Part shown: positions 29,579 through 53,144 of the stretch, piece by piece
Position numbering within the stretch: position 1 is the first letter of the stretch
How the letters are laid out: each line of letters opens with the position of its first letter
Assembly: GCA_030550585.1 (NCBI GenBank)
Contig: JAUQPB010000001.1
Location: 310,001-374,000, forward strand
Direction: 5' to 3'
DNA length: 64,000 nucleotides
From: Thermoproteota archaeon
GTDB lineage: Archaea; Thermoproteota; Thermoprotei_A; Sulfolobales; Ignisphaeraceae
Notes under the pieces: model-generated
What the model saw: the letters and a program-made list of their open reading frames with translations, nothing else
What the model was told of the DNA's origin: nothing
Database searches by the model: none
Translations under genes and position numbers: made by a program

Positions 29579-29626
29579 ATGATGATGTAGCTGAGCTCTG
29601 AATAGTGATGTACCCGGATTGTCTGA
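29579..29626 (+). ncRNA. box C/D sRNA
   Basis: The architecture is read directly: C box ATGATGA 29579-29585, 12-base guide (TGTAGCTGAGCT), D' box CTGA 29598-29601, 3-base spacer, C' box GTGATGT 29605-29611, 11-base guide (ACCCGGATTGT), D box CTGA 29623-29626. Predicted 2'-O-methylation is at the target base pairing with the fifth guide base before each D box, i.e. the C in AGCUC and the U in ACAAU. I did not identify the targets. It lies between the divergent-facing 5' end of moeA and the 3' end of endonuclease III. Confidence 0.85.
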
Positions 29627-42885: not shown

Positions 42886-42938
42886 TCAGCAATTTTATTA
42901 ACATCACCGCCATCAGTTCCCGGATTCCTCTTCATCAA
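42886..42938 (-). ncRNA. box C/D sRNA (probable)
   Basis: On the minus strand: C box TTGATGA (42938-42932), 15-base guide (AGAGGAATCCGGGAA), D' CTGA (42916-42913), 5-base spacer, C' GTGATGT (42907-42901), 11-base guide (TAATAAAATTG), D CTGA (42889-42886). The first C-box base is atypical, and the second guide is very A/T-rich. The target of the first guide would be UUCCCGGAUUCC-like, methylated at the fifth base (C). Confidence 0.65.
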
Positions 42939-45466: not shown

Positions 45467-46270
45467 CTAGGTGCTTTTAACTATTTTTCTTGCAAACACT
45501 ATGAAACCTGTGTGGCCAACCATGTAGGTAGAGGGCCTTATAGCTGTTCTCGATAACTCGAATTCTCTTAGCATTATCTCAAAAGCTCTAATATCTATGA
45601 AGCCGCCGAAGTCCTCTAAAGCATTGTACAGTTTTATAAGCTGCTGTATCGACGGTATAAAGAATGCTATTGGAGCAGATGGCTTTAGAGAGGTGTGTAG
45701 AGCTTCTAGAGCTTCCCAAGGATCTGGCATGTCAATAACTGCTGCATCGAAACCGGTTTCGTCTATACCTTTTCTCACATCAGCAAGTCTCAAGGTAACG
45801 TATTTATCTAATCCCAGCTTTTCGAGATTCTCCTTAGCCACCTTCAGAAACTCTTCTCTAATGTCATAGCCATATACATGACCATCGGGTTTGACAATAT
45901 GTGCTAACAAGGCAGTTGTATTGCCAGATCCAACCCCCGCTTCCAACACCTTGGCGCCAGACCCTAGACCGAGCATTAGTATTATGAAGCCCAAGTCCTT
46001 TGGGTAAATCACTTGTGTAACTCTTTTCAAACTCTTGTCGATATAGTCCAGGATAAGTGGTTTCAAGGCCCATGCTCTAATGTTTAACGAGGTTTTTATT
46101 TGCGATCCCTTCTCTTTTCCAATAATGTCATCGGCTGCTATAACGCCTTTGTCTGACGATATTTTCTCTCCTTGTTTGAGTCTTGTGAGAATTTTTCTCC
46201 TCTTGTCTATATATATCAGCGCATAATCGCCATAGTTAAATACCTCATTTTGGCTCAGAACTGGTGTCAT
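45467..46270 (-). CDS. trmI: tRNA (adenine-N1)-methyltransferase TrmI
   Basis: The 267-residue protein has an N-terminal beta-barrel and a Rossmann SAM-binding domain: YPKDLGFIILMLGLGSGAKVLEAGVGSGNTTALLAHIV near 90-127, GYDIREEFLKVAKENL near 136, and VIDMPDPWEALE near 175 (the D-x-P-x-P-W m1A motif). Archaeal TrmI methylates A57/A58 of tRNA, stabilising it at high temperature. Its ATG lies inside the D guide of the box C/D sRNA at 46255-46303. Confidence 0.93.
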   Translation of the reverse strand: MTPVLSQNEVFNYGDYALIYIDKRRKILTRLKQGEKISSDKGVIAADDIIGKEKGSQIKTSLNIRAWALKPLILDYIDKSLKRVTQVIYPKDLGFIILMLGLGSGAKVLEAGVGSGNTTALLAHIVKPDGHVYGYDIREEFLKVAKENLEKLGLDKYVTLRLADVRKGIDETGFDAAVIDMPDPWEALEALHTSLKPSAPIAFFIPSIQQLIKLYNALEDFGGFIDIRAFEIMLREFELSRTAIRPSTYMVGHTGFIVFARKIVKST

Positions 46271-46303
46271 ATATCACCACTCAGTAATACCAACCATCAT
46301 CAT
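46255..46303 (-). ncRNA. box C/D sRNA overlapping the 5' end of trmI
   Basis: On the minus strand: C box ATGATGA (46303-46297), 12-base guide (TGGTTGGTATTA), D' CTGA (46284-46281), 3-base spacer, C' GTGATAT (46277-46271), 12-base guide (ATGACACCAGTT), D CTGA (46258-46255). The 12/3/12 spacing is ideal for an archaeal C/D RNP. The D guide begins with the ATG of trmI. C' has two mismatches to consensus. Confidence 0.72.
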
Positions 46304-47088: not shown

Positions 47089-47910
47089 TTAAACATTTTT
47101 ACCATGTAACACCTTTTTTAGTTCTTTTATAATCTTGAGTCTTGTATTAGTATCAGCTCTATTCACATGCTTTGCAGTAACGCTCATGGCAACAACCTTC
47201 TCTTCTACATCAATTTTTTCAATTTCCTCACCATTTTCATCAATAACAACGGTTGGCACTGTGGCTAATACATCCTGTTTATACTCGAATATCCCACCGA
47301 CCACCAGACCCATGCTACCAGATTCCACAGCTCTTACAAAAGCTACCTGCTGTTGTTTTTGAATATCCTGGTTTATGCTTGGATAAACCACTATAATGTC
47401 CATATTCAATAGAGAGAATGTGAATGATATTTCCGGGTAGAAAATGTCGTCAGCTATTAGAAATCCTATCTTAGCTTTATCCAATGCCATGTATGGAAGT
47501 TGAGGGTATCCACTGATCTTATTGCTATTATCTGCTGTGACTTGCCTAATAACCTTTTTTATATCCCCATCTTTACCTATGAATACTGCTGATCTGTACA
47601 ACCTAGAGCCTCTACGCTCTATTAGTGGCCCAACAACTATGTTTACACCATAGCTCCTAGCCAGCCTAGCTATTTCATCTGTTGTTGGCCCAGGTATTGA
47701 TTCACCTGATATTTTGAGCGTCTTTTTGAATTCTATCTCATATATTGGGACCCCATTAACCATTTGAGGCAGTATCACAATGTCAACATATTTTCGATGT
47801 TCAAACAGTCTCTCTATTAAGTCTTTAATCTTGGCTATGTTCCTCTTCCTACTTCCCAGTTCTATGTTTGTATGGATTGCTGCTACATCTATTCTACTTT
47901 CTAACTGCAT
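47089..47910 (-). CDS. nitrilase-fold protein with substituted catalytic residues
   Basis: The 273-residue protein keeps the carbon-nitrogen hydrolase alpha-beta-beta-alpha fold, but the triad Glu-Lys-Cys is lost. The FPE-type Glu is Gln in DIVILPQM (residue about 49). The Lys site reads VIRQVTAD. The nucleophile site ICxDxxFPE reads FLIADDIFYPE with Ala replacing Cys (near 156). It is therefore probably a non-enzymatic relative. Its ATG overlaps the last 10 bases of reverse gyrase, so translation is coupled. Confidence 0.75.
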   Translation of the reverse strand: MQLESRIDVAAIHTNIELGSRKRNIAKIKDLIERLFEHRKYVDIVILPQMVNGVPIYEIEFKKTLKISGESIPGPTTDEIARLARSYGVNIVVGPLIERRGSRLYRSAVFIGKDGDIKKVIRQVTADNSNKISGYPQLPYMALDKAKIGFLIADDIFYPEISFTFSLLNMDIIVVYPSINQDIQKQQQVAFVRAVESGSMGLVVGGIFEYKQDVLATVPTVVIDENGEEIEKIDVEEKVVAMSVTAKHVNRADTNTRLKIIKELKKVLHGKNV

Positions 47911-50900
47911 ATGCTTTTCACCTTGTCTAGTTCTGTTTCGTAAATCTTTGGAACAATCTTGCTACAAACCTCGTTGAAAAGCTCGTTTATCACTAGGGTG
48001 TAGTCTATTTCACCTTTTTCTATCTTTTCCATTTTTTCGTATAACAGTTTGGTTCTACTGGTTGAAACCATTTCTGCTATATCTGCTACAGCCCTCTCTA
48101 CTGATGCTTTAATCACCTTCTCAACATCCTCTTCTTTAACATCTCTAAATAGGAAGGGGTATCTATGGACAAACTTTTGGATAAATGCTACCACATCGTG
48201 TTTGCCCTCAGGGAAGTTGTTTCCAGCAAGCAGGCTGTATATTAGTATGCCTGTTAGTGATGGTACTAAATATTGGTTTTTGCCTATGACATAAACATAT
48301 CTTCTCTTCTGTATAGTATCTATGATTTTTGCGTATGTGCTTGGCCTTCCGATACCAACGTTCTTCATCCATCTTACTATATCTCCTTGTGTCGGCAACT
48401 TTACATCGCTTAGCTCGACCGATCTGACTTTGCTTGGCCTCAGTACTACATCGCCTCTTGGAAGTGGTACAATGGATATAGTAGAGTAGTATAGGAGGAA
48501 CCCAGGTTCGATGATGTTAGTTGGAACCTCTATCACTGTTTCCCATATTTTATTCTCCTTGTATAGTATTTCTACAGTGTATAGCGACTTTTCCACTACT
48601 GCAGGCTTCATCTGGCTTGCAATAAATCTTCTGAATATTAGGTCATAGAGCTTATAGTGCTTGTTTGTTAGGGGTGTTGGGGTCTCTATCACCCCTTCGA
48701 CTATGAGCTCTCTTAGCCTAGTAGCATCAACGGGTCTCGTGGGTCTTATCGCTTCGTGGGCTCCGCCCTCTCCCCAGCTTCTTGGTGCAAATACCTCACC
48801 AATTTTGTCGCCAAATTGTGTGCTCAGATATTCTTTGGCAACTCCTATACCTGTTGTAGAAACCCTTGTGCTATCGGTTCTGTGGTATGTTATGAAGCCC
48901 AGCTCGAAAAGGTTTTGGGCTATCTGCATAGCTTCAACAGAATTCATTCGTAGAATTCTTTGGGCTTCAGCCAACATCTCATCTGTTGTAAATGGCGGAG
49001 GTGGGTATATTATATCCTGGTGTGAGTGCTTATAGTGAAAAACAACAGTAATGTCTGATGCTCTTATGGTTTGATCTATATTCAGCTTTTTGAAGGCTTC
49101 CAACGGCACCTCGAACTGTAGATTAGAAACGCTTATAATTTTGCTACGTCTAAGAGTGTTCAATCTGTTTATTGCTGTTTCTATTATCCTTCCAAGCACG
49201 GGTGTCTGGACTCTTCCGGCGCTATACCTCTTGTCTAATGCCATAGCCTTGCTTATAGAGCTATAGAGCTTTGTGACGTATTCTGATAGGGAGAAGCCTA
49301 GCCATCTATCCTCAATTCTCCTAGCTATCTGGGCCTCGACAAGAGCTAGGTTTATCCCCCTCAAATTTTCGAGTGCTTGTAGAATAGCTCTTCTCGTCAC
49401 CTCATGGAACTCAGCCCTCTTAATGGTTTTTGCATATGGCGCTAATGCTACTGCAACGTCATATGCTATTTTCTCGCCCTCAGAATCGGGGTCTGTAGCT
49501 ATAATGACCTCGTCAACCTCTAAAGCAATCCTCTGAAGAGCCTCTACAACATCTTTAGATGATTTGAATTCAGAAGACCCGCAAACAGGGCATTTATCCC
49601 CTTTAACAAACTGGGTTCCACACGCCAAACACCTTTTTATGTAGTCGTATCTAGGGACAAAGAACTTTGCTCCTCCCTGCACCCTTTTCTCAACACCATA
49701 TACAGAATCCTGTGATAGCTCTTCTTCAACAAGTTCGAAGATGTGCCCCCCAGATGCTGTTATAAGGAGATGCAACCTGCCAACATCAACCTCATAAACT
49801 CTGATAGTGCCATAGTCTCTGGCTGTCGGTTTACCGAAGAATGATGCAATGGTTCTAGCCTTGTTTGGCGATTCGACTATGAATAGCGCTGTTTTTGTCA
49901 GCTCCTCTACTTTTGTTAGCAGGTTGCTGGGCATACTCCCGCTTTTTATCATTTTAACTATTCTTCTATCTTCATCAATTCTCTGTATCTCCTTTTCGAG
50001 ATCTACCTCACTGATTGGGTAGAACTTGAAGTCGTCTATGTAGAATCTAAGCCTTTTCTCCAATCCATTAACCAGTCTAAGATCGTCGGATATCACTATA
50101 GATAACCCTCTTGTTATACCACCTATGTACAGCCTTGATGTTCTTCCACTGGCTTGGATATATGTTGGAGCGTCTGGTAATAGCATGTAGAGTTGCGCCC
50201 CCTCTTCATATATCACAATCGAGGGGTTGTTCTTCAGCCTTTCAATTATCTCACGTTGTTTTAGTAGCGATGACACATAATCGTGTGTTTCGAGCAACGT
50301 TCTTACAAGCTCGCTTCTCTTCTCTTCGTGCACACCCTTCTCAATGGACTCAATAACCTCTTTAAGAATGGTTGGAGACACCCTTCTTACAATTCTTCTC
50401 AGCACTGTTATCTTGTTCATTACATTGTTCCTCTCCCTCTCATCGACAACCTCAAGCAGAACAGATAATACCCTCAGCAATGTTGTGGGATTGTACTCGA
50501 TTCTGGACAGAGAGATTTTGTGTCTTGGAACACCGAAGAATATGGCGTATCTTATAACCTCTGGCAAGTCAATGCCTCTAACAAGAAGGCCGTAGTATGT
50601 TGCTACACCTACAACAACATCTAGATTGCCTTCAATGAACTCCTTTAGGCTCTTGCTCTTCTTGCTGACAACAACATCGGCTTTTACTCCCCTGTTAACC
50701 AGTTCCTGGGCTAGTCTCTGGGCCTCTTCAATGCCTTTGTCTAGGGGTACAAAAACTAGTCCTCCGGGGCCAAGCCTCTTAATCGTGTTTGCCAATACCT
50801 CGACTGCCTGTTCATAGCTGCTTACACTGACATAAACATCGGCGATATTTCTGTATAGCTCGACGCTAGAACCTATGGTGAAGCCTAGAAGCTCTTTGAA

Positions 50901-51896
50901 CAGTCTTATCCTCCTTCCTCTAGCTCTTCCAGTAGCCGAGCTTACTACCAGGATGCCTACCTGCCTTCTCTTAGACGCTATATGTGCTTGGTATTTCTTC
51001 ACTAGCTCGTCTACTGGCACACCATCTTCTCTGCATTCTTCAGCCTTTTCCTTTTGCGATAGACAGCGCATCTGCCTTATTCTCAAGGTTGATAACTTGT
51101 ACCCTATCTGCATATCCTCTTGGGAAAAGCCTAGAAGCATCAAAACATATTCTACGGCTTTGCTACCCTTCATAATGGCATCCACATCGTCAACGAATAT
51201 GAAATTGAATGCAAAGCCTTTATCAACTAGAGGCTTGAAGACCCTATCGAAATTTCTCTGCAGATAGTTAGACGTTGTTATGAGTATATCGAAGTTACCA
51301 TCCTTTATAATCTCCTCCAGCTCTGCTTTTCTCTTTGGAGAAACCTTTGAGTGCATAGCTGCAATTGCAACAACAATACCCAGATTGTTTGCCAGTTCCT
51401 GAAGCCTCTTATAATAGTGTTCAACTAGAATAGATGTTGGGACAATGATATAAGCCTTCCTATTGTGTTTATATGCGAGAAATAGAGCCATAACCAAGCC
51501 AAATGTTGTTTTCCCCACACCAGTAGGGGCAATCATCGCAAAACTGCTTTTCTGGGCAATTCTAAAAGCCCAGCTTACCTGGAGATTCCAAGGATTGTTG
51601 CCAACAGCCTTTCTGAAAAAATCTATGAAGCTATTTACAAACTCCTCCATCTCTACAAGCTCCAACACCTTTTTAGAAGGGGAATGCAGATATTTAAGCA
51701 ACTCCTTGAATGAGGTCACCTTAACAATGCTACTAGTATTCATGCACTTCTCACATGCATTTCTATTCAAAATCCTGACATCGTCTATGGGACCAGAACA
51801 GTTGATACATAAACTCATATACCTTGTATGTGGCAGAAAATGGGTTTGCGAGAAGCCCTGCCCATACTCGATACGAACATTGCCAATAAAACTCAT
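47901..51896 (-). CDS. rgy: reverse gyrase
   Basis: The 1331-residue fusion has an N-terminal zinc finger C30-x2-C33 and C48-x2-C51, then a helicase module with Walker A APTGVGKT (123-130), a DDVDA box and later ASGRTSRL motif VI. The topoisomerase IA module starts at TALFIVESPNKA (about 677), with a second zinc finger CLACG…CPVCG and active Tyr in FITYHRTDSTR near 1002. It introduces positive supercoils, a hallmark of hyperthermophiles. The ATG at 51896 has GGTGG four bases upstream. The nitrilase-fold gene overlaps its 3' end. Confidence 0.97.
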   Translation of the reverse strand: MSFIGNVRIEYGQGFSQTHFLPHTRYMSLCINCSGPIDDVRILNRNACEKCMNTSSIVKVTSFKELLKYLHSPSKKVLELVEMEEFVNSFIDFFRKAVGNNPWNLQVSWAFRIAQKSSFAMIAPTGVGKTTFGLVMALFLAYKHNRKAYIIVPTSILVEHYYKRLQELANNLGIVVAIAAMHSKVSPKRKAELEEIIKDGNFDILITTSNYLQRNFDRVFKPLVDKGFAFNFIFVDDVDAIMKGSKAVEYVLMLLGFSQEDMQIGYKLSTLRIRQMRCLSQKEKAEECREDGVPVDELVKKYQAHIASKRRQVGILVVSSATGRARGRRIRLFKELLGFTIGSSVELYRNIADVYVSVSSYEQAVEVLANTIKRLGPGGLVFVPLDKGIEEAQRLAQELVNRGVKADVVVSKKSKSLKEFIEGNLDVVVGVATYYGLLVRGIDLPEVIRYAIFFGVPRHKISLSRIEYNPTTLLRVLSVLLEVVDERERNNVMNKITVLRRIVRRVSPTILKEVIESIEKGVHEEKRSELVRTLLETHDYVSSLLKQREIIERLKNNPSIVIYEEGAQLYMLLPDAPTYIQASGRTSRLYIGGITRGLSIVISDDLRLVNGLEKRLRFYIDDFKFYPISEVDLEKEIQRIDEDRRIVKMIKSGSMPSNLLTKVEELTKTALFIVESPNKARTIASFFGKPTARDYGTIRVYEVDVGRLHLLITASGGHIFELVEEELSQDSVYGVEKRVQGGAKFFVPRYDYIKRCLACGTQFVKGDKCPVCGSSEFKSSKDVVEALQRIALEVDEVIIATDPDSEGEKIAYDVAVALAPYAKTIKRAEFHEVTRRAILQALENLRGINLALVEAQIARRIEDRWLGFSLSEYVTKLYSSISKAMALDKRYSAGRVQTPVLGRIIETAINRLNTLRRSKIISVSNLQFEVPLEAFKKLNIDQTIRASDITVVFHYKHSHQDIIYPPPPFTTDEMLAEAQRILRMNSVEAMQIAQNLFELGFITYHRTDSTRVSTTGIGVAKEYLSTQFGDKIGEVFAPRSWGEGGAHEAIRPTRPVDATRLRELIVEGVIETPTPLTNKHYKLYDLIFRRFIASQMKPAVVEKSLYTVEILYKENKIWETVIEVPTNIIEPGFLLYYSTISIVPLPRGDVVLRPSKVRSVELSDVKLPTQGDIVRWMKNVGIGRPSTYAKIIDTIQKRRYVYVIGKNQYLVPSLTGILIYSLLAGNNFPEGKHDVVAFIQKFVHRYPFLFRDVKEEDVEKVIKASVERAVADIAEMVSTSRTKLLYEKMEKIEKGEIDYTLVINELFNEVCSKIVPKIYETELDKVKSICS

Positions 51897-51970: not shown

Positions 51971-52019
51971 TCAGCGAAGAGAAGTCTCATCATATTTCAG
52001 GAGACCGTCGTATCATCAC
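51971..52019 (-). ncRNA. box C/D sRNA upstream of reverse gyrase
   Basis: Perfect boxes on the minus strand: C GTGATGA (52019-52013), 12-base guide (TACGACGGTCTC), D' CTGA (52000-51997), 3-base spacer, C' ATGATGA (51993-51987), 12-base guide (GACTTCTCTTCG), D CTGA (51974-51971). The D' guide complements GAGACCGUCGUA, close to the archaeal 23S segment AGACCGUCGU near E. coli 2587-2596 (from memory). Predicted methylation there is at the fifth target base, a C. Confidence 0.9.
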
Positions 52020-52081
52020 AAAAACATATATGCTTACCCATTTCACTATGTATATCACGGGGAATAAAAGACTTATAAGAT

Positions 52082-52130
52082 ATGATGACCCCAGCGAACC
52101 TGAGACAATGATGACACCTGTCTCACCTGA
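52082..52130 (+). ncRNA. box C/D sRNA divergent from the 51971 sRNA
   Basis: Perfect boxes on the plus strand: C ATGATGA (52082-52088), 11-base guide (CCCCAGCGAAC), D' CTGA (52100-52103), 4-base spacer, C' ATGATGA (52108-52114), 12-base guide (CACCTGTCTCAC), D CTGA (52127-52130). The D guide complements GUGAGACAGGUG, matching the 23S stretch GUGAGACAGGU near E. coli 2596-2605 (recalled). The fifth base is G, equivalent to about G2599-2600. An ORF covering it looks spurious. Confidence 0.88.
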
Positions 52131-52486: not shown

Positions 52487-52909
52487 TTAAAGTGTTGTTA
52501 TTATAGTATTTGTATCCTCTCCCACACCTTCCAGAAACTTTATGAGTGCAACATCTAATGTTAGAAACTGTAGTTTATTTTCATGGGCTATAGCATATAG
52601 TAGCAGATCTACTAGATCGTTGAATCCCTTCTTTCTAAGCTCAAGCGTTTTGACTATTGATGTGCTTGTTAGGGGCACTTTAATGAAGTTTCTTTCGATG
52701 CTCATCAGCCCCTTCATAACAATGTCTGGCTCGTAGCGGTTTTACTTAGTTTCCATGCTATTTCTAGGAGATTCAGCTCTGTGTGGTAGACTTCAACCTT
52801 ACCTTTTCTAACATAGTCCACAGACTCTCCAACAGTTTTCAACATCCTTAACACTAATCCCAACTATGGGTAGTAGAAAGGATGTGTCAAGAAGTATTCT
52901 TATCTCCAA
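52487..52909 (-). pseudogene. vapC: VapC PIN-domain toxin with two frameshifts
   Basis: A PIN toxin is recognisable in pieces: IRILLDTSFLLPIVG, then (other frame) GESVDYVRKGKVEVYHTELNLLEIAWKL, then (original frame) KGFNDLVDLLLYAIAHENKLQFLTLD. The catalytic Asp at LLDTS, the Glu in TELNLLEI and the late Asp residues are all present. Frame changes map near 52836-52839 and 52740-52743, both at four-T runs (plus strand), and cancel out. It starts TTG at about 52909, overlapping the intact AbrB antitoxin. It is either a mutated toxin or a sequencing artefact at homopolymers. Confidence 0.75.
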
Positions 52910-53144
52910 GCCTCCTCTGCTCCTCCTCACTAATACTCTCAATCTCTTCAATTGTTGTCTCAGCGAATTTGGATCCTTTCAATGCAAGCCAGAATGGATC
53001 TGGTATTGGGGTTGCAACAAGCTTGTTACCCCCAACCCTAAGCTCCAGATAAGCCTCCTCGCCAATCCCAAGATTCTCAGCAATATCCTTAGGTATGTAA
53101 ATAGTATTCTTCTTACTAACCCTAACAACCCTACCCATAAACAC
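52887..53144 (-). CDS. vapB: AbrB-family antitoxin (VapB)
   Basis: The 85-residue protein has an N-terminal swapped-hairpin AbrB domain (GRVVRVSKKNTIYIPKDIAENLGIGEEAYLELRVGGNKLVATPI) and an acidic C-terminal segment that would neutralise its toxin. It overlaps the vapC reading frame downstream. The antitoxin is intact although the toxin is broken. The start could be ATG 53144 or Met3 at 53138. Confidence 0.85.
   Translation of the reverse strand: MFMGRVVRVSKKNTIYIPKDIAENLGIGEEAYLELRVGGNKLVATPIPDPFWLALKGSKFAETTIEEIESISEEEQRRLGDKNTS

Follow-up and report, generated by a model that had tools for sequence, protein, structure and literature searches.

Two adjacent, divergently oriented C/D box sRNA genes with predicted guides for neighbouring sites in helix 93 of archaeal 23S rRNA

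We characterized a locus at which two C/D box sRNA genes, here termed sRNA A and sRNA B, lie next to each other and beside a reverse gyrase gene. The locus is part of a 64-kb stretch of DNA (the window) from an archaeon of the Ignisphaeraceae. Its features are as follows:

47901-51896, minus strand: reverse gyrase gene (ORF), the neighbour outside the guide pair, downstream of sRNA A
51971-52019, minus strand: sRNA A, C/D box sRNA core from C box to D box, without box mismatch; conserved in the family and the order
51975-51986, minus strand: D guide of sRNA A; best predicted site in the window's family 16S helix 44 G1489, alternative 23S G2056
52001-52012, minus strand: D' guide of sRNA A, complementary to host 23S rRNA at 2587-2597; C2590 (E. 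coli numbering) is the predicted methylation site
52020-52081, no strand: shared 62-bp spacer, candidate divergent promoter region inferred from A+T peaks
52082-52130, plus strand: sRNA B, C/D box sRNA core from C box to D box, without box mismatch
52089-52099, plus strand: D' guide of sRNA B, not conserved and without a good ungapped rRNA site
52115-52126, plus strand: D guide of sRNA B, complementary to host 23S rRNA at 2595-2605, predicted methylation of G2599

When the window was scanned, A and B were the only C/D architectures with zero mismatches, and their coordinates, strands and 62-base spacing were exactly those given by an earlier, sequence-only reading of this DNA. The C (RUGAUGA), D' (CUGA), C' and D boxes follow in the correct order in both genes. 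From 5' to 3', sRNA A consists of the C box GTGATGA, the D' guide TACGACGGTCTC, CTGA, the spacer AAT, the C' box ATGATGA, the D guide GACTTCTCTTCG and CTGA, and sRNA B of the C box ATGATGA, the D' guide CCCCAGCGAAC, CTGA, the spacer GACA, the C' box ATGATGA, the D guide CACCTGTCTCAC and CTGA. Guide, D'-C' spacer and guide lengths are 12/3/12 in A and 11/4/12 in B, against expected values of ~3-5 nt for the spacer and ~10-12 nt for guides. The two genes are oriented head to head, with 62 bp from C box to C box. A strict C-D'-C' core pattern occurs at 14 places in the 1.76-Mb host genome (0 places in the whole genome for the reversed control), and A and B form the only close pair among them; the other 12 strict cores are found on contigs C3, C4, C6 and C7 of the host assembly (G000; L198-L211). 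Resemblance to Rfam is weak but to the right class (A vs. snoPyro_CD, E = 0.00037; B vs. sR7, E = 0.012): the snoPyro_CD and sR families share the architecture of A and B, with weak similarity along the full model, but carry other guides, and no C/D family attains its gathering threshold at A or B (best 28.4 bits vs. 45). By sequence, each gene is an ordinary archaeal C/D box guide sRNA of known class. A chance origin is excluded, since both are conserved in several families of the order while their flanks vary. Elsewhere in the window, three C/D-like sequences with one or two box mismatches were noted at 29579-29626 (plus strand), 46255-46303 (minus strand) and 42886-42935 (minus strand), the first being the best of the three.

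Host rRNA is readable only in the 3' part of 23S, the 16S and 5' 23S sequences being masked, and relatives were used in their place; the nearest, G005, has a complete rRNA operon and a 23S rRNA that is 99.4% identical to the readable 3' part of the host. The methylated nucleotide was predicted by counting five nucleotides upstream from the D or D' box and numbered via alignment to annotated E. coli 23S rRNA. Aligning the guides to the organism's own 23S rRNA, a check that the sequence-only reading had proposed, located the complements of both the A D' guide and the B D guide within GTTTAGACCGTCGTGAGACAGGTCGG on contig C7. The A D' guide pairs with 2587-2597 through 10 Watson-Crick pairs and one G-U pair (-18.8 kcal/mol) and the B D guide with 2595-2605 through 11 Watson-Crick pairs (-19.4 kcal/mol), and these two sites rank first in the complete rRNA of G005. 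The scores of single guides beat a shuffled-guide null only modestly; they are indecisive because the rRNA is G+C-rich, and the weight therefore falls on conservation. The earlier reading had named a target range of about 2587-2605 with sites near 2590 and 2599, and the alignment yields concrete predictions, C2590 and G2599, which both belong to helix 93 in the peptidyl transferase centre. It had also called the two targets consecutive; they are indeed neighbouring stretches whose duplexes jointly cover helix 93, but rather than lying end to end they have 3 nt in common (2595-2597), an overlap absent from that reading. Simultaneous full pairing of both guides is consequently impossible. In one relative (G040, locus L128), the 23S sequence departs directly after CGTCGTGAGACAG, near helix 93, which suggests that either an intron or a break in the assembly falls within the helix. 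A guide for 23S C2606 is known in thermophiles; with the one exact pattern searched, no third guide for this position was found in the window's family.

Position 2590 presumably corresponds, from the numbering offset, to Cm2959 of yeast 25S rRNA. This mark is guided by snR73, a C/D guide like A that differs in being a eukaryotic snoRNA (PMC5199042); since Cm2959 is the final row of the table, no yeast mark is listed there at the G2599 equivalent. In Dennis et al. (2015; PMC4644070), whose compilation holds 719 sites, C2590 appears as alignment position C2864, as calculated by offset from 2880 (E. coli C2606), and is a predicted target of Pyrobaculum calidifontis sR30 and of Ignicoccus hospitalis sR124/127. 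As described there, sR30 guides two helix 93 sites and, like A, uses its D' guide for C2590; however, it is one double-guide sRNA for C2606 and C2590, whereas at the present locus C2590 and G2599 have an sRNA each, encoded by divergent genes. The prediction for sR124 and sR127 likewise matches that for A, but there two sRNAs address one site (PMC4644070). The same source suggests chaperone roles for paired guides, so that the sRNA class, the C2590 site and the chaperone idea are all already known.

A target in rRNA for the second guide of a C/D sRNA is usual but not obligatory, and here A and B differ: the A D guide is conserved and fits G1489 or G2056, whereas the B D' guide is neither conserved in relatives nor has a good ungapped match in rRNA. 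Both facts are additions to the sequence-only reading. The A D guide is kept everywhere A occurs, although the retrieval pattern comprised the D' guide only. In families f2, f4 and f6 it reads TCTTCTCTTC or TCTTCTCTC and fits GGGAGAGAAGAC of 23S rRNA, with G2056 as the predicted target and usually the first-ranked one. In f1, the window's family, it reads ACTTCTCTTC in all 15 members examined; there the first-ranked site is GGGGGAGAAGUC of 16S rRNA, with G1489, beside the decoding site, as target (11 pairs, two of them G-U), and 23S G2056 (nine pairs, one G-U) comes second or third. For the window itself, the 16S target is read from the nearest relative's 16S rRNA, that of the host being masked. 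Families f7 and f3 carry ATTCTCCTT. The guide thus appears, from these pairings, to change its target between families (23S G2056 in f2, f4 and f6, 16S G1489 in f1 and perhaps another site in f7 and f3), and offers a case of apparent switching between the two rRNAs. A P-loop target for the B D' guide (23S 2242-2253) was considered and rejected as a firm assignment, since it requires a bulge and the guide is not conserved.

Archaeal C/D sRNA genes are described as having a variable genomic context and fast-changing guides. Separate searches for the two guides in 147 genomes of the order detected the B guide with its D box in 89 and the A guide in 42. Conservation percentages computed on the retrieved sequences are partly circular, because the guides themselves had served to retrieve them. 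Independent evidence comes from the D guide of A and from the adjacency of A and B, since neither entered into the search for the partner gene. A and B adjoin in 37 genomes of three families, 2-230 bp apart: the 15 pairs of f1 and the 10 of f2 are without exception head to head, separated by 34-78 bp save for two gaps of 214 and 230 bp, and among the 12 genomes of f7 eight have them tail to tail (gaps of 14-42 bp) and four head to head (gaps of 2-13 bp). Wherever f3, f4, f6 or the f2 genus g41 yielded both genes, these were on separate contigs. Among relatives the guides are fixed and the flanks variable; beyond the order, in the sampled phylum, the B guide is nearly absent and the A guide sporadic. 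A tree of 23S fragments did not resolve the families, and the linkage may have had one origin followed by translocation, or two origins. A search of viral contigs for 16S gave no match, and a genome-contig search with reverse gyrase returned Desulfurococcales archaeon RSNS17 as the only named relative. While the single genes are of a known kind, their persistent linkage is the unusual and mildly surprising part of the locus, and no description of a conserved two-gene arrangement was found in the literature searched.

The earlier placement of the pair beside reverse gyrase holds, since the ORF starts at 51896, 74 bp past the D box of A. Most f1 and f2 genomes have reverse gyrase after A; in two f1 genomes other genes, which we take from their sequence to encode ribosomal protein S13, stand on B's side in place of reverse gyrase, and further genomes have different neighbours. 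The short distance on the same strand, together with the order kept in most f1 and f2 genomes, could be read as a locus whose main role is not to guide rRNA modification but to regulate reverse gyrase, for example through a leader RNA element. We regard this as very improbable, for the conserved part is the guides and not the leader, the pair occurs without reverse gyrase alongside, and an A+T-rich stretch between A and the ORF could provide the gene with a promoter of its own. In f7, for instance, the pair has no adjoining reverse gyrase and is flanked by an ASCH-domain gene and a DeoC-type gene; B lies on the strand of the former and A on that of the latter in either order. Across the f7 loci L135-L139, L161-L163, L166 and L168-L170, genera differ in which of A and B comes first but not in the strand of each gene.

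The shared spacer contains ATGTATATCAC / GTGATATACAT, TATA-like on both strands and ~30-36 bp away from the C box of each gene. In the 22 head-to-head pairs of f1 and f2 that were compared, both genes show a peak of A+T content at -35 to -26 relative to the C box, the position expected of archaeal TATA elements, and the spacer probably holds the promoters of the two divergent genes. Only ~20% of archaeal C/D genes reportedly have such a promoter motif, most riding on neighbouring transcripts (PMC7994747). The f7 arrangement, in which each gene shares the strand of a flanking gene, fits the latter mode; its head-to-head gaps of just 2-13 bp leave no space for promoters between A and B.

Taking these elements together, we consider it very likely that the locus as a whole is best explained by two guides acting on helix 93, a second site for A, action in sequence or on separate pre-rRNA molecules, and promoters in the spacer. 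The gene architecture, the complementarity to host 23S rRNA, the conservation and the retained adjacency are shown here; expression of A and B, the methylation that they would direct and the order of their action are inferred. In this scheme, each sRNA would form an sRNP with L7Ae, Nop5 and fibrillarin; the A D' guide would direct 2'-O-methylation of 23S C2590 and the B D guide that of G2599, and the A D guide would act on another rRNA position, which is 23S G2056 in a number of related families and probably 16S G1489 in the window's family. As the helix 93 duplexes share 2595-2597, the sRNPs would act one after another or on separate pre-rRNA molecules, and each bound sRNP would hold open one half of the helix.

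Why the two genes have stayed together is a separate question. The sequence-only reading proposed that a paired locus may coordinate methylation, which is plausible. A further reading holds that the pair is a functional unit, in which co-expressed guides compete for helix 93 and so impose ordered methylation as well as chaperoning, as the double-guide sR30 may do elsewhere. The 3-nt overlap of targets that jointly span the helix agrees with this, as does a linkage seen at two different types of locus, 37 genomes in all; so do the chaperone roles proposed for paired guides and the account of sR30 in Dennis et al. (PMC4644070). Yet other families keep both guides unlinked, and in f7 the genes follow the strands of different flanking genes, so that co-expression is not obvious; we consider the functional unit rather unlikely. 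We are similarly doubtful that the pair is a selected unit whose mutually exclusive duplexes impose an order on how the peptidyl transferase centre is methylated and folded, with a linkage that arose or was kept at two loci. The reading that we moderately favour is adjacency without function, in which independent guides came to lie near each other by chance and the linkage was passively inherited, a spacer of ~60 bp being seldom broken. Consistent with passive inheritance, g41, f3, f4 and f6 keep both guides but have the two genes on separate contigs, the reverse gyrase neighbour is usually co-inherited in f1 and f2, and archaeal C/D genes can occur in clusters of two or three (PMC7994747). 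It accounts less readily for a pair that outlives changes of neighbour (reverse gyrase, ribosomal-protein genes, a PIN-like gene, the ASCH and DeoC genes), that persists in f7 through a swap of gene order, and that is the only close pair among the strict cores of the genome. Linked guides for one helix, retained while others drift or retarget, provide a natural experiment on whether guides work independently of one another or jointly.

Two further ORFs lie beside B on the minus strand: one at 52887-53144 encodes a MazE/AbrB-type antitoxin (Pfam PF04014), and it is followed by a small ORF at 52487-52717 with no Pfam match. The two perhaps constitute a toxin-antitoxin pair.
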